Positions 2,499 to 10,411 of a stretch of DNA of 20,687 bases are shown in pieces (the stretch's first letter is position 1; each line of letters starts with the position of its first letter). The DNA is from a virus. Made by a program: the position numbers and the translations under genes. Under the pieces are notes generated by a model. It was given only the letters and a program-made list of their open reading frames with translations, was not told where the DNA came from and made no database searches. The DNA is taken from positions 1 through 20,687 of the IMG/VR virus record IMGVR_UViG_3300034012_001094; one strand, 5' to 3'.

Positions 2499-3278
2499 GT
2501 GGCAAGTACCTCTACGAATAAGCAGCCGCTCCTGGTTGACCGCCCGCTGTTTGATTCGGTGCGTGTCACGACCCAGACTGTTGGCAGCCAGGCAAACAAC
2601 ACCATCTTTGTGCAGGGTGGCCAGGCGCCCTCCATCCTGGTGGACATGGATGCAGCACTGGAAGAAGATAATAATAATGGCGGTGTTGTGGATTCCATTA
2701 CGATTACGCGTAATGATTTCACTCGTTCACCTGATTACGCCGTCAACACCACAACGTCAGGCACTGTCATTTCTTTGACCAGTGGTCAAATTGTTCATGT
2801 GCAATCAACCGCTGTTGTTGGCACGGCACCTGCTAATGGCGTTGGTTATTACACCTATACCGGTGCAACTACGCTGACTGGAGTTAATACAGCCATTGTG
2901 TATTCCGGTGGTACTGCAACTGGCTTCAGCTACAACGGTGTTGCTTACGGCTACAAGCCAGCAGTGACCTTTGTGTTCTACCACACCCGTGGCACCACTA
3001 CCCCAATTCCGGCTTCTGGCGATTACAAAGTACTGTTCGCTAAAACGGTCCCTGCCGACAGCGGAGTTGTGGACTGTTCTGATGTGATGCCGCAACTTGC
3101 TGCTCCTGTTGCCCAAGCAGGTAATACCAATGGCCTCGGCCCCACGGCACCTCTCCGCAACAAGGGTGTTTACCTGGAGCGCGGTGACCGTATTTATGTT
3201 GGCGTGTTTGCAGACGGCCCCAACGTGTCTGGTTACATCCCTGGCGTCCATATCTACGCACAAGGCGGCTTCTTCTAA
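2499..3278 (+). CDS. Probable virion structural protein
   Basis: A 259-residue protein from GTG (MASTSTNKQPLLVDRP). The sequence is rich in Thr, Val, Gly and Ser with alternating beta-type patterns, typical of a capsid decoration, tail tube or other all-beta virion protein. The C-terminal half has VFYHTRGTTTPIPASGDYKV and ends YIPGVHIYAQGGFF, consistent with a folded beta sandwich. Ribosome-binding signals are weak (AAAAAAGG about 12 bases upstream), but no ATG lies near in frame and the reading frame is clean. It has its own TATAAT and is followed after three bases by the next gene. The exact particle location is unknown. Confidence 0.75.
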   Translation: MASTSTNKQPLLVDRPLFDSVRVTTQTVGSQANNTIFVQGGQAPSILVDMDAALEEDNNNGGVVDSITITRNDFTRSPDYAVNTTTSGTVISLTSGQIVHVQSTAVVGTAPANGVGYYTYTGATTLTGVNTAIVYSGGTATGFSYNGVAYGYKPAVTFVFYHTRGTTTPIPASGDYKVLFAKTVPADSGVVDCSDVMPQLAAPVAQAGNTNGLGPTAPLRNKGVYLERGDRIYVGVFADGPNVSGYIPGVHIYAQGGFF

Positions 3279-3281
3279 ACT

Positions 3282-4844
3282 ATGGCCAAAAAGAGTGGAA
3301 GCTCTTTTGGGAACTTTAATCGGGCCGAGGTTTTTGATCCTCGGCCCGTAAAACCAATTACAACTGAGTTCTCAAGGGGCTCGGTCCCAGATTCGATCTA
3401 TACGATCAACCGTGAGTCGGCTTGGTCTCGCTGGCGTCGTGGTTACGAAATTGCAACAGCCTGCTTCTACGACAACTCTTACGACTACGCTTTCACATAC
3501 CAAGTACCGATCCCAGCCGGTACGCCATCCACTGGTGGTAACCCACCCACGATTCCTGGTGTCTTTAAAGGATTTCCAACCAAGAATAAAGAATTTGGTA
3601 TGCACTGGGCTGGCATACGTGTGGCTGGCAGCTTACGGTTTGATAATGTTGTCGATAGCACTGGGGTGCGTGCTTCTATTGCTTCTGTCACTGAAGACGA
3701 TGATTACTGGTACGTCCAGCTGACAGGAACCTGGAGTGTAGCCAACCCACTCCCGCCTCCGCTCTACGTTGCTATTCCGGGTGTACCAGGTGGCCTGAAG
3801 GCAATCAACGGTGAGATCCTGGAAGACCGAATCATTACTCCAGGTGGTGTACCTATCACTAGGGATACGATTGATCCGACAACTCAGAAACGATACGGAT
3901 ATGTCCAGGCCGTTTTGGTTGACACCAATCCGTTCACAGGTGTCCTTAAGTTAAGGAAAGCTGGATCTGTGGAGGCAACTCCTGACCGTGCTTTGGTTAC
4001 TCCTGCAACCCGGCCCCCAAATATCGGCAGGTTCATGATGACCGGCACACGGTATTGTTGTTCGTGCCAGGATTTCAATCGCCGTGATTACGGTTACATG
4101 ACATCTTTAAACAAGGTGTCTGAATCACTGAAAGTTAGATTCCCACGGAGTGGATTCTCATCCCTCAAGCCTGGTCGGTATGAAGTAATGACCTTATCTG
4201 GTGTGGTGGATAACAACGCCATGACCAATGCCAATACCAATCGGGACATGAGGATCATTTCCCCGGCACCTCAATACAATGTCCCACCAACAGTCACGCC
4301 TACCACCACGACTAAACCTGGAGCCGCTAGGGACAATCCTGGTGTGTTCCGTGATTTTGGTTCGATGTACCTGCGTAGTACGACAGATCCTTCTCTCCCT
4401 GGCTCCAGGGCAGAAGGGATGCCTAGCTATGCGGACTACTCTGCGGCAGGTAATGTAATCACATCGCTGACGGACACCTGGACCCCACTGCTAGATGAGA
4501 TGCGTTACTGCAAACACATCTACGCCATGAAATATGAAGAAGGTGTGTTTCCACCTGAGCCTTCTGATTTTCCCGTCGGCATTGAAAGCATGGCAGCCTG
4601 GGAGCAAAAACTTGTTGAGGACACAGAAAAGGATCAGACAGAGTTAAGGGCAGCTGATCTGCAACGACGTTCGCTGGCGACTATGGATGTACCGCCTTAC
4701 AACTGTCAGGCGCCAATGATGATGCCGATGATGCAAAAGTTGTTTAACATCCCGTCAACCTTTGTCAAGATGGCAGGTTTTACAATGATTGACAAGAATG
4801 GAACCAAGTACATTCCTGCATCTGGTGAACGTCCTTCTGTGTAG
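3282..4844 (+). CDS. Large probable structural protein with a Cys cluster
   Basis: A 520-residue protein (MAKKSGSSFGNFNRAEVFDP). It has aromatic, beta-rich segments in the first half (ESAWSRWRRGYEIATACFYD), a Cys-containing stretch TRYCCSCQDFNRRDYGYM near residues 255-272, a Thr/Pro-rich low-complexity stretch near residues 335-350, and a Met-rich segment MMMPMMQKLF near the C-terminus. The CCSC group could bind metal or form disulphides. It lies between a beta-rich virion-type protein and a 73-residue gene with two- to three-base gaps, so it belongs to the same late transcript. I have seen similar RYCCSC-type proteins only as cyanophage hypotheticals. A virion or tail role is inferred. Confidence 0.75.
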   Translation: MAKKSGSSFGNFNRAEVFDPRPVKPITTEFSRGSVPDSIYTINRESAWSRWRRGYEIATACFYDNSYDYAFTYQVPIPAGTPSTGGNPPTIPGVFKGFPTKNKEFGMHWAGIRVAGSLRFDNVVDSTGVRASIASVTEDDDYWYVQLTGTWSVANPLPPPLYVAIPGVPGGLKAINGEILEDRIITPGGVPITRDTIDPTTQKRYGYVQAVLVDTNPFTGVLKLRKAGSVEATPDRALVTPATRPPNIGRFMMTGTRYCCSCQDFNRRDYGYMTSLNKVSESLKVRFPRSGFSSLKPGRYEVMTLSGVVDNNAMTNANTNRDMRIISPAPQYNVPPTVTPTTTTKPGAARDNPGVFRDFGSMYLRSTTDPSLPGSRAEGMPSYADYSAAGNVITSLTDTWTPLLDEMRYCKHIYAMKYEEGVFPPEPSDFPVGIESMAAWEQKLVEDTEKDQTELRAADLQRRSLATMDVPPYNCQAPMMMPMMQKLFNIPSTFVKMAGFTMIDKNGTKYIPASGERPSV

Positions 4845-4846
4845 CC

Positions 4847-5068
4847 ATGGCTGAATTTGGCGACGTTGTTGACTCCAATTTCATCTACTCACAAGAGCAG
4901 ATTGATCAACGTATCTACGGTGAGAGTACTATTTCTTACAGCGGGATCCCCACGATTTATCACGTGGGGGATGTGGTACACCTGCCGTACCAATCAGGTG
5001 AAACCTCAACCATGGAAGCGATAGGCTTGGCCTGGGCTGCGTTCGCCAGCGGTATCGGACCAGAGTAA
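4847..5068 (+). CDS. Small hypothetical protein closing the first late block
   Basis: A 73-residue acidic protein (MAEFGDVVDSNFIYSQEQID) starting two bases after the previous stop and ending at TAA 5066-5068. It has no membrane segment; the middle reads ISYSGIPTIYHVGDVVHLPY and the end AIGLAWAAFASGIGPE is mildly hydrophobic. It is the last gene of the tightly coupled 217-5068 run and is followed by 108 bases without a gene. No family recognised. Confidence 0.65.
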   Translation: MAEFGDVVDSNFIYSQEQIDQRIYGESTISYSGIPTIYHVGDVVHLPYQSGETSTMEAIGLAWAAFASGIGPE

Positions 5069-5176
5069 CATAATGTAAACTTATATTAGTCCCACAGGAC
5101 TTATTAAGAAATCCTTTACCCCTTGCGAGTGGGAACCGCCCGTTCTTAGGGTCAGGTTATCCAACTCATCTCAGCT
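5069..5176 (+). other. Non-coding gap with small inverted repeats; possible end of late transcript
   Basis: This is the second-longest gap in the window. It holds AGTCC/GGACT arms with a CACA loop at 5088-5101 followed by TTATT, which is a weak terminator candidate, and GAAC/GTTC arms at 5133-5145. TATATT at 5082-5087 could be a -10 box for the next gene, with no clear -35. I looked for a tRNA (anticodon and T-arm pattern) and saw none. Nothing here is strong. Confidence 0.25.
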
Positions 5177-5599
5177 ATGACTCAAACCCCGCCTGTTGAC
5201 CAGCGGATTGTGGATGAGTATTTCCAGCTGGCATCCCATCGGAAGACCAAAGACGTTGCTTGGTTGTACGGCATGGTTGCGACCTATGGCGTCAAACCAG
5301 ATGAACTAAAGAATTTTGATTGGGGTCCAGAGAACACCATCCACCTCCCTGGAAAGAAACGAATGATTCGCCCGCTGCACCCACAGTGGGTTTTGCTTTT
5401 TGGTCTCAATGAAAAACGGCCCAGCAAATTGCAAGGCCGTTGGGAATCCATCTCGCACTCACTCTATGAAGCCATTGCCTATCAGCATGTTCAGTTGAAC
5501 ATTACTGATTTGCTACTGGCCCACCGCATTCGCAAGAACTACTCGCGTTCCTTCAAGCAGCAACAGTCATCTTCTCCTGCTTTTGCAGGTGCTTTCTGA
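5177..5599 (+). CDS. Short tyrosine-recombinase-like protein, likely degenerate
   Basis: A 140-residue protein. Residues 29-75 read WLYGMVATYGVKPDEL, then a strand with GKKRMIRPLHPQWV. This matches the beginning of the catalytic domain of cyanobacterial and cyanophage integrases, where the usual form is TYGLRPHE followed by a beta hairpin with a Lys and PLHPEW. The catalytic Arg of that first box is Lys40 here. The later His-x-x-Arg box and the nucleophilic Tyr are not recognisable; DLLLAHRIRKNYSR near 111-124 may be what remains of the DLRHxxAIR region. Full integrases have 300-400 residues, so this is a remnant, a decoy or a repurposed DNA-binding protein. It converges with an excisionase-like HTH gene, which fits an integration-module origin. 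Moderate confidence in homology, low in activity. Confidence 0.55.
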   Translation: MTQTPPVDQRIVDEYFQLASHRKTKDVAWLYGMVATYGVKPDELKNFDWGPENTIHLPGKKRMIRPLHPQWVLLFGLNEKRPSKLQGRWESISHSLYEAIAYQHVQLNITDLLLAHRIRKNYSRSFKQQQSSSPAFAGAF

Positions 5600-5771
5600 C
5601 GGCTGCCACGTTCCAGCGATAACCATCGCGAGAACGGGTCTCAGGGAAGGCGGCGAAATGCGGACCCAGTTTCAGAGTGCCGTCGTCGCGGTACTTGAAT
5701 AAGGTCTTGCGGTCGATACCAAGGAGTTCTTCTGCCCGTTGGACAGAGACCCAACCATTGGCTTTGGTCAT
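5553..5771 (-). CDS. Excisionase/MerR-like helix-turn-helix protein
   Basis: A 72-residue protein. Residues 7-31 (WVSVQRAEELLGIDRKTLF then KYRDDG) are a typical HTH of the excisionase/MerR type, followed by GPHFAAFPETRSRDGYRW as a wing and VAAVRKHLQKQ as the end of the winged domain. It should bind DNA and act as a repressor or recombination directionality factor. The 3' end overlaps the recombinase-like gene by 47 bases on the opposite strand. Its start faces the HNH gene across a 138-base region with a perfect 6-bp inverted repeat (5846-5863), a candidate operator. The product at 14908-15315 has the same order of HTH, then G-x-H-F/Y, then basic beta wing. Confidence 0.75.
   Translation of the reverse strand: MTKANGWVSVQRAEELLGIDRKTLFKYRDDGTLKLGPHFAAFPETRSRDGYRWNVAAVRKHLQKQEKMTVAA
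5576..5589. terminator. Hairpin in a convergent gene overlap
   Basis: CCTGC/GCAGG arms with a TTTT loop lie inside the 47-base tail-to-tail overlap of 5177-5599 (+) and 5553-5771 (-). The GC-rich five-bp stem could stop transcription from both sides, but no T-run follows on either strand. The two other convergent junctions of the window also carry hairpins. Confidence 0.35.
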
Positions 5772-5845
5772 GGCGCGGAAAAAACGCGTGCCTTCATACC
5801 GTAACGGCTGTCAAGCCCTAGTCAACGGTCTTAAGAAAACTTTTA

Positions 5846-5863
5846 CAAACTTGTTGCAGTTTG
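5846..5863. promoter_or_regulatory. Candidate operator in a divergent promoter region
   Basis: CAAACT, six bases, AGTTTG: a perfect inverted repeat in the 138-base region between the HTH gene (-) and the HNH gene (+). Its size (18 bp, dyad) suits a small dimeric HTH regulator, and the obvious candidate is the neighbouring 72-residue protein. Autoregulation is inference. Confidence 0.4.
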
Positions 5864-5881
5864 ATACACGTAAGGGGAAAT

Positions 5882-5887
5882 TAAAAT
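5882..5887 (+). promoter_or_regulatory. TAAAAT -10-like box for the HNH gene
   Basis: TAAAAT lies 22 bases before the ATG at 5910 and about 18 bases downstream of the candidate operator. No clear -35 box is seen. The same hexamer occurs at 11268-11273 before the NblA-like gene and at 20128-20133 before the last fibre gene. Confidence 0.3.
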
Positions 5888-5909
5888 AAGATAACGGCAA
5901 CAGAAGAGT

Positions 5910-6278
5910 ATGTTCAATTGTGAGCAGGACCCCCTTTCCCTACTCATTGAATTAACTCCCAAACTTGCGAAGAAACGTTATCGACAATCCATTTACGAAG
6001 CCTGGGACCACAAATGTGCGTACTGCAAGGATAGCGCCACCAGCCTTGACCACATCATCCCTCGCTTCAAGTCAGGATCCAACAACCGGAATAACCTGGT
6101 TCCCGCATGCCGTCGGTGCAATTCGAACAAAGCCAGCATGAAGATGGAAGATTGGTACCAGCAGCAGGAATTCTTTGACCAGATTCAGATGGACAAGATC
6201 CAAGCCTGGGCCTCACAGGAAGTAATTGACATCTTCCAGTACGGAACTCCCGGCCTACTGCCTAGATTTGCGGTTTAA
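5910..6278 (+). CDS. HNH endonuclease
   Basis: A 122-residue protein with a complete McrA-type HNH core: CAYC (Cys36, Cys39), LDHIIPRFKSGSNNRNNLV (Asp47-His48, Asn62) and CRRCNSNK (Cys67, Cys70, Asn71). The two CxxC pairs bind structural zinc, and His48 is the expected general base. It would cut or nick DNA. The small size, the stand-alone gene and the position beside recombinase-like and HTH genes suggest a mobile or accessory nuclease rather than the packaging HNH that sits next to terminase genes; no terminase is visible here. AGAAGAG directly before the ATG is a weak ribosome-binding site. Confidence 0.85.
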   Translation: MFNCEQDPLSLLIELTPKLAKKRYRQSIYEAWDHKCAYCKDSATSLDHIIPRFKSGSNNRNNLVPACRRCNSNKASMKMEDWYQQQEFFDQIQMDKIQAWASQEVIDIFQYGTPGLLPRFAV

Positions 6279-6312
6279 TCTTGGTAGGATACTGAAAAGA
6301 AATGTGTAGATA

Positions 6313-9300
6313 ATGGGCATTCGTTACGATGCCAACGCCCGCAAATGGGTTGTCACGAACGAAAGAACTGATTATCCGACCAATTACCAAACGGATTATC
6401 AGACGAATCGCCCTACCGATTATCCGACAAACTTAAATACCCAAAACCCTTACCATACCTGGGGTGTCATCCGGGACCGTAACGGGAATATCATCAGAGA
6501 AGACTGGACTACCACGACTAACTGGGGTGGCGTCAAGTTTCAACCCTATCTTCCTACCAATCTTCAGACAGATTTACCAACTAACTTAAGGACTGATTTT
6601 CCAACTGATTTAAAAAGAACAGAAACATATAACGAGTTTGTTTGTTATGTCAGAATTTTTGGCGGTTGTTTATATGGAGACAACGAAAGAAGAACGCGAA
6701 CTGTTAATGATTCAGAAAGGAACCAGGCTAACCGTCAAAAAAACAACGAGAATGCACAAACTAATACAAACAATAGGGCGACTAATTTAGCGAATGCTCA
6801 AACCAACGCTAATAACGCAAAGGCAAACATTGAGATTGAAAAAACAAACACACGAATTCAAGGCGAGAACCAAAATTTATACACAGTTAATACCGATAAC
6901 TTAAACACAAACACAACCAATACTCAGCTGAACGCAACCAACAAAGCGCTCAACGAAGAAGCGTTTGCCTTAAATCAAAAAAACACTCAACTTAATAACG
7001 AGAACACCAAGCTCAATACTCAAAACACAGCTCGGAACAATCTTTATTCACAGACCGTATCTATTGCTTCTACCACCCAAGGGGGAGATTACGTTGGCAA
7101 ACGTGATCAGCTCTCTGCGCAAACTTTAATCAATGCAGGTATTCCTGCTTCTGAAGCTCAAAGTTTAGTTGACAGCATCAAGGGCAACTACAAACTGTTT
7201 TACCAGACGGAAAAGTTGGTGCCATGGGATTCAAAGCTTGGAGCCCAACCACCACACGGTACGTTTGATCCTGCTTATTACAAGCAGCAAAACCAGGCCG
7301 TTGTACAAGCCTGGAATAACGCTGTTGCTAATGATGATTTAGATATTACACAACGTTATGGTGAGAATAATTTTTACTGGCAACACTACACTAACGTCGG
7401 TAAAAACCAAGGTCTACGTGGCAATAAAGCGGAAGACACGATTGCCGCAGGGCGCTACACAGAAGCTGCCCTGACGGATAAAGAGCTTCAGGATATTCGC
7501 GATTACCAATTAGGTGTTGATTCCGACACAATCACCCAGCGTTTGTTGAATATCCCAGAAGTCACAAACCAATGGACAAAAGCCCGCCAGGGGGATCCTT
7601 ATTGGCAGAATCTCGCAAAACAAAAGTATTTAGATGTCAATAAGGCAGAAGATTTTGCTGCGTTGTTTCGTTTGTCTGAACGTCCGGAGGACAAGCAAGT
7701 TGTTTTGAACTACAACGTTAATGCTGGTACTGGCATTACTCAGCTAGAGGACGCTATCAATGAAGCCATTGGTTCCAAGGCTCAGGTTGACGTAAAGAAA
7801 TTTGCTGCTTTGAATCAAACGATTCTTAAAGATACGATCCAGGAGATGAAGCGTGTCAAAGCAGAGCAGGAAATGATGGGTTTCTACCGTGGCTTCAGCG
7901 GCTTCTCTGAAGTGATGGACATCAACAAGGAGCTTGCTAACAATATCCTCGGTGACACGGGGGTTGGCGGCATCCTTTCCTATACGTCTGCTGGCAAGGC
8001 AGAAGAAGATCTCCTTGGTGCGCTCCAGAACGTCACTGGGATGCGGAGCAATGTGGCCTACAACTGGCAGCAGTGGTTTGATAAAGCCATTAAAGATAAG
8101 TACGGCATTGATTACTCCTTGTTTGAACCCCTGGAGGAGAAGAAAGATATCATCTCGGCGTTTACCAAAACCGACAAGAAAGCATTTGATGCTGCCACAG
8201 GTAAGTTCAATGATGAGTTCTTGAAATCTGCTGGTTTTGATTCGACCGAAAATCTGGTTGCGTTTCTGGAGAAGCAAGGGGAAGAAGGTACCAAAATCTT
8301 GAACGCAATCAAGGGAGATCCGGGAGAGGCTGCAAACGCAATCTTGGTACCGATTCAATCACGTCTGGAAGCAGATATCAAAACCCTTGACGAAACCAAA
8401 GATCGAGGCATTGCTGTTTCATACACCCTTGGTGATGCAACAGAGATGATGAATATCGAAGCTCAATTTGCCAGAAACTACATTGATGAATACCTGGTAC
8501 CAAGGTTCAGCACTGCTCGTTCCATGGATGAATTTGTCGAATACCTTGATGTTCGGCAAGAAGAGAAAAACCCCTTCCAAACCCAAGATACCTATGACGC
8601 GATTAAAACAATCGGTGAGCTGTACAGTAAGAAATATCTGGATGACATTCGGCAGCAAGGTGCCAGAGGGTTTGATTCGGAGTTTTACTTCAATCCCACG
8701 GGTGATACATCGCGTCAAGATGCGTACGCAAAACAAAAACAAACAGTGGAAGAAGATTGGCAAAAAGCAAAGGCAGGCGATCCTTACTGGACTACTCAGC
8801 TGTACCGTTTTGGCATTGATGTAAACAACAAAGCTGCATTTGCACGCATGCACTTTGAGGTCAAGGGTCAGGGCCAGGGCTTTGATGCGGCTGACGACAT
8901 CACCAACGCAAGCAAGGTCAAGGATTTTCTGTACCAGACGGTGATTCCTGTCATGAAGGAAGAAGCCTTCAAGTCGGATCCGGTCTTTGGTCAGTTCATT
9001 ACCCCAGAAGAGTTTGCAGATGAGATGCTGCGGGGCCTGGATCCCGACCAAACACCAGATGCCTGGAAGGAGCTGCTCCAGCGGTACGGCCTCAGTAGCT
9101 TTGCCGGGACCATTGATGAGTTGAAGCAGTACATCGTCGAGACGCTGCGCACCGGATCAGCTCAGGACATTCGAGAGCAGATTAAGTTCCTTAACGAAAA
9201 ACGTCAAAAGCCAACTCAAGAAATCTTGGGCGTTACTTACATTGATCGTCCCGAAGATTACAAGGATGAGATGGCAAAACCAACGACAGAGTTGTATGCC

Positions 9301-9648
9301 ATCTTCCAGAAGTCTGGCTATCAAGGAACAGAAGATGAGTTCTACACCAATATGTTCCCTGATCTGGATCGAACTGAGCAGGTTCTCCTCACCAAGGCAG
9401 GTAGGGATGACGCGCTGAAATCCTATGGTCTTGATCTTTCAGATCCATTTGCATCCCTTGGAACAATTGAAAGCTTCTTCCCTGAAGATCAACAGGAGCA
9501 GGATAAAGAAACTGCCAAGGAAACTGCTAAGGATTTCTATACAAGTTATTTTAAAATTGGAGAAGATGATGATGACGACGAAACGCAGAAATCTGCTGCC
9601 GCCCAATCTCTTCTTGGTGAATTCACTTCCATGTTCAAGGGCCTGTAA
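6313..9648 (+). CDS. 1111-residue virion protein with Thr-tetrad and Asn-heptad repeats
   Basis: The largest protein in the window. Residues 19-46 and 81-100 are four-residue repeats (T-D/N-Y/L-P/Q). Residues 150-240 are thirteen consecutive heptads with Asn at position two in every one, which suggests a long fibrous or coiled-coil stalk. From ~318 (FDPAYYKQQNQAVVQAW, then YGENNFYWQHYTNVGKNQG) it resembles the FDPxYYxxxNPDV / HYxxxGxxEG modules of cyanobacterial secreted proteins. A GDPYW-centred segment occurs twice (residues 427 and 822). The last 40 residues hold an acidic DDDDDE run and end LLGEFTSMFKGL. No long hydrophobic segments are seen, so a classical tape measure is unlikely. The gene is followed by a TAATG junction. 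A structural role, perhaps tail or an ejected protein, is inferred; the family is not known to me. Confidence 0.75.
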   Translation: MGIRYDANARKWVVTNERTDYPTNYQTDYQTNRPTDYPTNLNTQNPYHTWGVIRDRNGNIIREDWTTTTNWGGVKFQPYLPTNLQTDLPTNLRTDFPTDLKRTETYNEFVCYVRIFGGCLYGDNERRTRTVNDSERNQANRQKNNENAQTNTNNRATNLANAQTNANNAKANIEIEKTNTRIQGENQNLYTVNTDNLNTNTTNTQLNATNKALNEEAFALNQKNTQLNNENTKLNTQNTARNNLYSQTVSIASTTQGGDYVGKRDQLSAQTLINAGIPASEAQSLVDSIKGNYKLFYQTEKLVPWDSKLGAQPPHGTFDPAYYKQQNQAVVQAWNNAVANDDLDITQRYGENNFYWQHYTNVGKNQGLRGNKAEDTIAAGRYTEAALTDKELQDIRDYQLGVDSDTITQRLLNIPEVTNQWTKARQGDPYWQNLAKQKYLDVNKAEDFAALFRLSERPEDKQVVLNYNVNAGTGITQLEDAINEAIGSKAQVDVKKFAALNQTILKDTIQEMKRVKAEQEMMGFYRGFSGFSEVMDINKELANNILGDTGVGGILSYTSAGKAEEDLLGALQNVTGMRSNVAYNWQQWFDKAIKDKYGIDYSLFEPLEEKKDIISAFTKTDKKAFDAATGKFNDEFLKSAGFDSTENLVAFLEKQGEEGTKILNAIKGDPGEAANAILVPIQSRLEADIKTLDETKDRGIAVSYTLGDATEMMNIEAQFARNYIDEYLVPRFSTARSMDEFVEYLDVRQEEKNPFQTQDTYDAIKTIGELYSKKYLDDIRQQGARGFDSEFYFNPTGDTSRQDAYAKQKQTVEEDWQKAKAGDPYWTTQLYRFGIDVNNKAAFARMHFEVKGQGQGFDAADDITNASKVKDFLYQTVIPVMKEEAFKSDPVFGQFITPEEFADEMLRGLDPDQTPDAWKELLQRYGLSSFAGTIDELKQYIVETLRTGSAQDIREQIKFLNEKRQKPTQEILGVTYIDRPEDYKDEMAKPTTELYAIFQKSGYQGTEDEFYTNMFPDLDRTEQVLLTKAGRDDALKSYGLDLSDPFASLGTIESFFPEDQQEQDKETAKETAKDFYTSYFKIGEDDDDDETQKSAAAQSLLGEFTSMFKGL
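6367..6612 (+). repeat. Two blocks of a Thr-Asp/Asn tetrapeptide repeat
   Basis: Within the 1111-residue protein, Thr recurs every fourth residue at 19, 23, 27, 31, 35, 39, 43 and again at 82, 86, 90, 94, 98. Units are mostly TDYP, TNYQ, TNLQ and TDLP, with Asp and Asn nearly alternating. A 35-residue Trp-containing segment separates the blocks. Confidence 0.85.
6760..7032 (+). repeat. Thirteen Asn heptads
   Basis: Residues 150-240 of the 1111-residue protein divide into 13 seven-residue units, for example TNTNNRA, TNLANAQ, LNATNKA, LNQKNTQ, LNNENTK. Asn is at unit position two in all 13 and often also at five; position one changes from Thr to Leu along the array. Confidence 0.85.
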
Positions 9649-10019
9649 TGTCAGACAAACGTAAGAAAGCTGCTAAGGCCGCGAAGATCGCCAAGGATCA
9701 GATGGCGTGCAACAAACCACGCCGCACTCCTGGGCACCCCACAAAATCTCACGTTGTTAAAGCATGTAAAGGCGGAGAGGAGAAGATCATCCGCTTCGGC
9801 CAGCAGGGTGTAGAAGGCGCTGGCAAGAATCCCCAGAGCGCCAAGGACAAGGCCAGGAAGAAGTCATATTACGCAAGGCATAACGCCCAAGATCCGAATC
9901 CCGACATAATGTCTGCCCGCTACTGGAGCCATCGAGTAAAGTGGATGATCTTAGGTGGTATACTAGGGGCTGATGCAATTACGCAATGCCTTCACAGCGT
10001 TGGAACTATGTTGACGTAA
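9648..10019 (+). CDS. Basic conserved phage protein (CNKPRRTPGHP family, probably DUF5872)
   Basis: A 123-residue, strongly basic protein. TAATG overlaps the previous stop, and AAGGG lies six bases upstream. It has a Lys-rich N-terminus, then CNKPRRTPGHPTKSHVVKAC, then KIIRFGQQGVEGAGKN, then a KARKKSYYARHNAQ segment and MSARYWSHRVKW. I know this pattern from many phages and some giant viruses as a domain of unknown function (DUF5872, named from memory). Family members usually end soon after the VKW, so the last ~24 residues (ILGGILGADAITQCLHSVG...), which overlap the HNH gene, may be a recent extension. Role unknown; the charge suggests contact with nucleic acid. Confidence 0.75.
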   Translation: MSDKRKKAAKAAKIAKDQMACNKPRRTPGHPTKSHVVKACKGGEEKIIRFGQQGVEGAGKNPQSAKDKARKKSYYARHNAQDPNPDIMSARYWSHRVKWMILGGILGADAITQCLHSVGTMLT

Positions 10020-10411
10020 AGTGTTCGAGTTGTAACAAAGAAGCAAAGATCAGGATTGATCAGTTTAATAGGCGAGGGAAAACTTGGGAATGTAGATCTT
10101 GCGTCTATAAAGGCAGAAAACTAGATATTAAAGATCCTTCCGCTCGCCATGATCCCGTTAAAAAAGGAGCATGGAATAGTTATTACAGAGCAAAAGGCAG
10201 ATGTAACTCAGGTCATTATGGTTATTACACAAACATTGAGTTTAAATTTAATTCTTTTGATGAGTTTTACGCCGAATTAGGGCCGCGACCAGAAGGAATG
10301 AGCTTAGACCGCATTGACAATCTTGGACATTATGAGCCAGGTAATGTCCGCTGGGCTACCCATCAAGAGCAATGCAACAACCGGCGTGCTCGTGGCTCAG
10401 TTTCCAGGTAA
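9986..10411 (+). CDS. HNH-type homing-like endonuclease
   Basis: A 141-residue protein. The N-terminus has a zinc ribbon (Cys13/Cys16 and Cys36/Cys39). The middle (AWNSYYRAKGRCN) and the C-terminal core SLDRIDNLGHYEPGNVRWAT followed by QEQCNNRR (residues 106-134) are the signature of the phage HNH group that often travels as free-standing homing endonucleases. It overlaps the end of the previous gene by 34 bases in another frame and has only a distant AGGGG upstream, so it may be translated at a low level. Its base composition is more AT-rich than its neighbours, which fits recent transfer. It would nick or cut DNA lacking the insert. Confidence 0.8.
   Translation: MPSQRWNYVDVKCSSCNKEAKIRIDQFNRRGKTWECRSCVYKGRKLDIKDPSARHDPVKKGAWNSYYRAKGRCNSGHYGYYTNIEFKFNSFDEFYAELGPRPEGMSLDRIDNLGHYEPGNVRWATHQEQCNNRRARGSVSR

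Follow-up and report, generated by a model that had tools for sequence, protein, structure and literature searches.

A Predicted Inactive Tyrosine-Recombinase Fragment Domesticated Beside Two Core Genes in a Cyanophage Group

Results

Gene Layout and the Closest Phage

The locus examined here is a domesticated fragment of a tyrosine recombinase, denoted REC, standing beside two core genes, denoted HTH and HNH, and it is not a decayed island. The window, i.e., the whole stretch of DNA that was analyzed, is the 20,687-base IMG/VR virus record IMGVR_UViG_3300034012_001094 (positions 1 to 20,687). The features of the locus are listed in Table 1. As described in the original prediction, all three open reading frames (ORFs) are present, with REC converging with HTH and HTH diverging from HNH, and the occurrence of an Int/Xis-like pair within a late-gene region is likewise supported.

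Table 1. Positions of the genes and DNA elements of the locus in the window.
Feature	Position	Strand	Description
g73 (small gene)	4847-5068		upstream flank of REC/HTH/HNH
Candidate -10 TAAACT	5076-5081	+	just upstream of the hairpin; TATACT or TATAAT in many relatives; conservation only
Hairpin AGTCC-CACA-GGACT	5088-5101	+	precedes REC; stem covaries among REC-plus relatives
Candidate second promoter TTGCGA-N18-TAGGGT	5123-5152	+	relatives often TATGGT or TATAGT; conservation only
REC	5177-5599	+	140-aa tyrosine-recombinase catalytic-domain fragment, predicted to be catalytically dead
REC/HTH coding overlap	5553-5599		47 nt, tail to tail
HTH	5553-5771	-	72-aa winged-helix protein, Xis/MerR fold
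Divergent HTH/HNH intergenic region	5772-5909		138 bp; conserved GTCAA and TTAAAATAA elements
HNH	5910-6278	+	122-aa predicted HNH endonuclease; invariant D47-H48, N62 and two Cys pairs
Large gene	6313-9648		downstream flank of REC/HTH/HNH

When two late proteins of the window were compared with the phage collection, Synechococcus phage S-EIV1 (KJ410740), whose source is a high arctic lake, was the single record matched by the 520-aa protein (61% over the full length) and the sole record matched by the 1111-aa protein (57% over 74% of the length). S-EIV1 shares with the window the order g73, HTH (minus strand), HNH (plus strand) and large protein; unlike the window, it has no REC. A second HNH-type ORF (phrog_374, E 1.1e-20) is located at 9986-10411 of the window, where it overlaps the end of a 123-aa gene, and a similar ORF is present in some relatives and missing from others.

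Homology of REC to Tyrosine Recombinases

The comparison set for REC consisted of 26 integrases (full or partial copies, L120-L145) on other viral contigs, which were fetched using a DNA pattern of box I. We take this ATYGLR-type group to be of the cyanobacterial type. The profile comparison covers this group only, and box I of the P-SSP7-type integrases is not of the ATYGLR type. The HMM of the 26 integrases matched REC proteins with E values down to 1.4e-12 (63 sequences searched), and hhalign aligned the REC profile with the integrase profile at P 5.8e-12 over 78 columns. Because the integrase set had been selected by box I, box I was also masked in REC, which gave P 1.8e-6, again over 78 columns. 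In the reverse search, the REC HMM was run over 2930 distinct ORFs, i.e., those of at least 100 aa from all loci collected to that point, and 18 ORFs from integrase loci outranked all other non-REC ORFs. The recombinase resemblance that had been claimed for 5177-5599 is thus confirmed by the profile search, and these matches show that REC is truly homologous to the catalytic domain found in a group of tyrosine integrases.

The AlphaFold model of REC is weak (pLDDT 56). Among 91 chains compared with this model using VIA-align, 8 reached Z ≥ 2 (Z 5.6 to 2.5), all of which are tyrosine recombinases or topoisomerases, belonging to one superfamily; the best chain was 2h7f (Z 5.6, rmsd 3.8, 93 aligned). 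The modeled fold agrees with the recombinase homology and can be regarded as supported but not proven, the Z values alone being insufficient as proof. Foldseek, applied to the PDB with the same weak model, gave no match with E < 0.001; the top ranks were occupied by unrelated proteins, Cre and a topoisomerase appearing at ranks 12-14.

The Pfam search with the REC of the window returned 0 families, and the 7 families that one or more of 30 REC members matched at E values up to 10 did not include PF00589. At the thresholds used, no recombinase match for REC was obtained from Pfam, PHROGs, NCBIfam or the PDB sequences. The tblastn searches of phages and plasmids with REC and with the REC consensus found no recombinase, and two of these searches gave chance-level matches only. 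REC is accordingly described here as a family absent from Pfam, NCBIfam and PHROGs at these thresholds, an inactivated recombinase that probably has another use. The literature search, which covered titles and the openings of abstracts, returned nothing on the REC family.

Catalytic Residues and Boundaries

The catalytic positions were compared using a merged MAFFT alignment of 138 unique REC sequences and the 26 integrases, from which 2 incomplete or short REC copies had been excluded. REC and the ATYGLR integrases are alike in the start of the catalytic domain at a PSDxxI linker and in the WxYGMMATYGL box I region, and the P-x-x-P-x-W turn and the box II helix region also align. They differ in that REC has no core-binding domain, no box III and no standard nucleophile position, and has Arg I almost never and Arg II never.

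At the Arg column of box I, R is found in 26/26 integrases, whereas the 138 REC sequences have K in 72, T in 32, H in 9, D in 8, S in 5, N in 4, Q in 4, R in 2, G in 1 and A in 1. The change from Arg to Lys had been noted correctly for the window (K40); Lys is not fixed in the family, and the position is free. At the Arg column of box II, R is found in 25/26 integrases, with one gap, and in 0/138 REC sequences, which have L in 94, I in 25, V in 14, Q in 3 and M in 2, with Leu in the window. Box III (His/Trp) is absent from 138/138 unique REC sequences.

The assignment at box II depends on the register of the alignment. Another HxxR, H116-x-x-R119, exists one turn later, where H116 is nearly invariant and R119 is invariant in REC alignment A1. 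The reading of H116-R119 as the box II motif is disfavored and the loss of Arg II is preferred, because the profile alignments place TDLLLAHRIR on YDLRHAWAIR; this is the preferred register and not a proven one. The earlier statement that no HxxR is visible is therefore fair in the preferred register, and it overlooks the motif one turn later. As for the nucleophile, Tyr falls in the corresponding column in 123 of the 138 REC sequences, but only across a gap of ~26 columns, and this placement may be an alignment accident. The window has Ser in this column and Tyr one residue earlier.

The N-terminus of REC lies at the linker that leads into the catalytic domain, where PPVDQRI corresponds to LPSDxxI. 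Its reading frame continues through the box II helix and stops within the 3′-terminal part of HTH, which converges with it. Judged from these alignments, REC covers about two thirds of the catalytic domain, counted from the domain start, and is truncated ahead of box III and of the site where the nucleophile normally stands, and the residues that it retains predict that it cannot recombine DNA by known chemistry.

Maintenance of REC

The search with the window protein as the query gave 117 confirmed stretches, and that with the family alignment as the query gave 319 stretches on viral contigs; 80 loci were kept from each. The length of REC is nearly constant, with 60 of the 138 unique copies having exactly 140 aa and 123 having 136-146 aa within a total range of 123-151 aa. 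The members diverge to ~40% identity (38-46% when compared with the first row of alignment A5) while the same fragment is kept, and the proteins are basic (median pI 9.5, range 7.9-9.9). Outside the overlap with HTH, the median dN/dS of REC is 0.153 (range 0.027-0.329), as obtained for 62 distinct sequences and 408 pairs restricted to dS 0.1-1.2. The corresponding medians are 0.094 for HTH (253 pairs) and 0.098 for HNH (211 pairs). The description of the module as decayed does not hold for REC, which is under purifying selection and has a narrow length range. The domestication of REC is well supported, and it is very probable that REC is both domesticated and functional. One copy, at L010:6001-6420, has an in-frame TAA at codon 125, which trims the last 16 residues and leaves 124 aa compared with 140.

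HTH and HNH Proteins

The model of HTH (pLDDT 78) is a winged helix of the Xis/MerR type, and HTH is a small basic protein (family median pI 10.1) with a putative DNA-binding fold. The model matches 2kvv, a putative excisionase, with Z 8.6 (rmsd 2.7, 69 aligned), and the fold is common to phage excisionases and MerR-like proteins (2kvv, Pukovnik Xis 4j2n and Tn916 Xis 1y6u). It also matches the DNA-binding domains of viral packaging motors, 7lw0 with Z 7.0 and 7lwr with Z 6.5. Because packaging-type and MerR proteins match as well, the word excisionase is used for HTH as a statement on the fold and not on the function. In sequence searches, HTH gave 19.3 bits against Pfam HTH_17, which is under the cut-off of 27, E 0.0027 against the phrog_66 excisionase, no family in NCBIfam, and one clear match in the phage collection, namely S-EIV1. 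Unlike phage excisionases, HTH is below the Pfam cut-off, and no active integrase partner was found for it in 22 related records, most of which may be fragments. The original designation of HTH as excisionase-like is therefore sound with respect to the fold, and at the level of Pfam HTH_17 it stays under the threshold.

The HNH protein gave 39.7 bits against Pfam HNH (cut-off 21.4) and 40.6 bits against HNH_5 (cut-off 27.5). The residues D47, H48, N62, C36, C39, C67 and C70 are invariant in 12 sequences, and relatives of the protein occur in 476 phage records. With a Pfam match over the cut-off and intact motif residues, the gene was identified correctly as HNH.

Conserved Gene Order and Optional Status of REC

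A total of 268 loci were scanned, where loci and not contigs were counted; several loci come from one contig, and most were fetched by REC. REC is present in 245 of them, in 243 of which HTH lies convergent beside it, and the other 2 end at a contig edge. REC and HTH are arranged tail to tail in 243/243 testable loci, with an overlap in 240 and none in 3. The overlap is 47 nt in 138 loci, 44 nt in 29, and 38 and 62 nt in 17 each, other lengths being rarer. When distinct DNA blocks are considered (n = 151), the two genes overlap in 149 and keep the same frame phase (phase 2) in 150, although constant overlap and phase would also be expected from the inheritance of one arrangement.

HNH is present in 250 of the 258 loci with HTH, and the remaining 8 run off the contig within 185 bp. 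Both genes, HTH and HNH, turned up in every contig that extends to their site, S-EIV1 included. In L181 and L203, the upstream tail gene is present and neither HTH nor HNH is in the record, but both contigs end in inserted genes before the expected HTH, so that they count neither for nor against. L224 and L225 were considered as genomes without HTH and HNH and were rejected as such; both genes are in the records, beyond the fetched locus. The three genes do not form the accessory island that had been proposed, since HTH and HNH are core genes as far as can be tested.

The frequency of REC can be measured only in the 95 loci fetched with the tail gene or HTH of S-EIV1, which were ranked by similarity to S-EIV1; the loci L001-L081, L085-L096 and L241-L320, for which REC or its relatives served as the query, are useless for this purpose. 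Of these 95 loci, 85 span the site and 10 do not, and REC is present in 70 and absent in 15 of the former. The profile search found no REC in the whole of S-EIV1, and the other 21 records searched, which had been chosen for REC, all have it. There is also no REC in the records of L224 and L225. In L322, g73 and HTH nearly abut, and several genomes without REC (e.g., L146-L149, L152 and L214) have a compact terminator-like hairpin in the gap, as read by eye. Conservation as core genes in all relatives, which had been put forward as the observation that would speak against an island, was thus found for HTH and HNH where testable, and not for REC. A clean junction joining 5068 to 6313 was not seen; the observed junction runs from the end of g73 to the end of HTH.

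In the tail-protein tree (225 sequences reduced to 137 distinct ones), the presence and absence of REC needs at least 6 changes, all of which are forced by well-supported branches, and REC-plus rows lie on both sides of the midpoint root. REC is therefore probably ancestral and was lost several times, with the provisos that the tail gene may have evolved on a path of its own and that REC-plus rows are over-sampled. Since REC was lost repeatedly while HTH was kept, HTH does not need REC.

DNA Elements

The hairpin in front of REC is paired in 95.8% of the cells over 25 sequences. In this alignment, 8 cells are changed on both sides, compared with a shuffled mean of 1.8 and 0/500 shuffles as high, and one of the five measures (further pair types) shows no excess over the shuffles. 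The sigma-70 consensus scan of 4800-6400 found no promoter, and the promoter assignments in Table 1 therefore rest on conservation. The Rfam search of the same region gave one match, which is far under the family threshold. The hairpin combined with the -10-like box was also considered as a repeated phage promoter and was rejected, the window having one copy of the hairpin. A structured scan for the combination, which misses even the copy in front of REC (-10 TAAACT, stem 5 bp), gave none in the window and two unrelated places in S-EIV1. The length of the HTH/HNH intergenic region is 132-141 bp in 79 of 82 loci and 124 bp in S-EIV1, 2 loci being not measured.

Integrases in Related Records and the Scan of Species Genomes

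No tyrosine integrase (PF00589) was found in the 22 related records, most of which may be fragments, and the same search was positive in 14/14 control genomes. The serine recombinase family (PF00239) was also absent from the 22 records, with 10/14 controls positive. A full-length integrase, which had been suggested as something to look for in relatives, was not found in these records.

The REC alignment was compared with one genome for each of 84,980 species, using two peptide patterns only, and one locus was obtained, in an archaeal MAG. Its contig (L085:1-6068), binned in a Euryarchaeota MAG, carries REC, HTH and HNH in phage order. Because of these ORFs, the contig is taken as misbinned phage DNA, which it probably is. 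No integrated REC copy was seen in this two-pattern scan.

Discussion

Proposed Role of REC

The best explanation overall, to which we give about an even chance, is that REC is a domesticated, dead integrase fragment that acts as a regulator with the Xis-like HTH. The regulatory job itself, which we infer, is held slightly below even chances. In this mechanism, REC would be a small basic DNA- or protein-binding regulator of the late region, working with HTH. HTH would bind the divergent HTH/HNH control region and set its own expression and that of HNH, and perhaps also that of the large gene behind HNH. REC may be expressed from its own candidate upstream promoter region, and it could counteract or tune HTH by contact or by competition for DNA, while the REC transcript would oppose HTH transcription across the overlap. 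The targets and the direction of control are likewise conjectural. HTH stands beside REC wherever this can be tested and also occurs without REC, which is expected if REC depends on HTH or its site. On the other side, the coupling of REC and HTH may be mere linkage through the overlap, and REC, which has no core-binding domain, may by analogy have lost DNA binding, as in TnsF.

TnsF of the Tn6022-like Tn7 transposons provides a precedent for a partial inactive recombinase catalytic domain as a protein-contact module; this partial catalytic domain is thought by the authors to have lost DNA binding (PMC10293859). TnsF carries zinc fingers together with two core-binding domains, and its task is the targeting of the transposon (PMC10293859), unlike REC, which is a single fragment of 123-151 aa without zinc fingers or tandem core-binding domains; the two are likened by description and not by sequence. 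The ALOG domain proteins of plants (PMC3537659) are a case of a tyrosine-recombinase piece recruited as a regulator. They resemble the proposed REC in being a regulator made from a recombinase piece, and they are eukaryotic.

A more specific version of the regulator, which we regard as speculative and rather unlikely, is that an old Int/Xis-like pair in apparently non-integrating cyanophages has become a recombination-free switch, locked tail to tail, that would control late genes at the insertion site of psbA and host-directed genes. It is easy to set aside truncated integrases in phages as mere scars; in REC, purifying selection acts across a diverse cyanophage group. REC can serve as a tractable example of how the domain of a site-specific recombinase is retained, with an excisionase-fold partner, after the loss of its chemistry, and the site at which phage genomes acquire photosynthesis genes can be tested for a connection to a regulatory cassette.

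Alternative Explanations

The main rival is that REC is an anti-integrase, i.e., a dominant-negative decoy for the integrases of prophages, integrative elements or phage satellites in the same host, with which it would pair or whose sites it would occupy, and that the excision or integration of those elements is blocked during lytic growth. Much of the catalytic-domain scaffold is kept in REC, and the similar integrases encoded on other viral contigs are complete enzymes, where only the ATYGLR group was profiled. In addition, REC is optional and was lost several times, a pattern common among accessory interference genes, and its immediate upstream neighborhood admits other genes, e.g., psbA. 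However, no target is known, the core-binding domain that recognizes sites is missing, and the constant pairing of REC with HTH is left unexplained; we therefore consider both the decoy and the blocking of such elements to be doubtful. HNH nucleases lie beside terminases in other phages, and HTH and HNH could instead be a core pair for packaging or genome maturation, in which HTH would resemble a small-terminase DNA-binding domain and REC would have joined later to modulate the pair. The presence of HNH beside HTH wherever testable and the matches of HTH to 7lw0 and 7lwr are in line with such a pair. It is nevertheless improbable, as the annotated terminase large subunit is ~13 kb away in S-EIV1 and the MerR and Xis folds also match HTH.

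The remaining explanations receive very little weight. Recombination in trans, with REC assisting a host Xer or integrase as an accessory subunit and HTH as the directionality factor, would suit an Int/Xis-like pair with a recombinase-type fold, but it is very unlikely in view of the scan of 84,980 species, in which the two peptide patterns found a single REC contig, likely a misbinned phage. There is slightly less to be said for the REC frame mattering only as antisense or read-through RNA over HTH, with the protein being incidental, because protein-level selection acts on REC outside the overlap; the constant overlap and phase that would favor it (phase 2 in 150/151 blocks) are also given by a single inherited arrangement. 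That REC is a pseudogene remnant of a decayed integration module, on its way out, is scarcely credible. Such a remnant would be truncated, with catalytic residues lost, as REC is, and the independent losses and the one contig with a premature stop after codon 124 would agree with it. Against this stand the narrow length range, the dN/dS of ~0.15, the 319 related stretches, and the same fragment kept by members at only ~40% identity, and the selection measurement largely refutes the decay of REC.

Insertion Place Between g73 and REC

In L088 (1448-3807), the gap between g73 and REC contains a 364-aa photosynthetic reaction centre protein (PF00124, psbA-like, E 3.9e-87), a cyanophage outer-membrane-like protein at 3005-3370 (PF24653, E 5e-38), and a 64-aa ORF, presumably high-light-inducible-like but without a Pfam match. 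The gap is therefore regarded as an insertion place on account of these extra genes. In L183, a 219-aa ORF with no Pfam match lies at 6883-7542 in a g73-REC gap of 855 bp, and the same gap length is shared by L182, L184 and L187. In L181 (6848-7978), g73 is followed by an ORF of at least 377 aa that is cut by the contig end, in the position expected for REC or HTH. Behind the tail gene, a collagen-repeat ORF (PF01391, E 1.7e-51) is inserted in L225 (6680-8680), and repeat-like ORFs follow the tail gene in L203.
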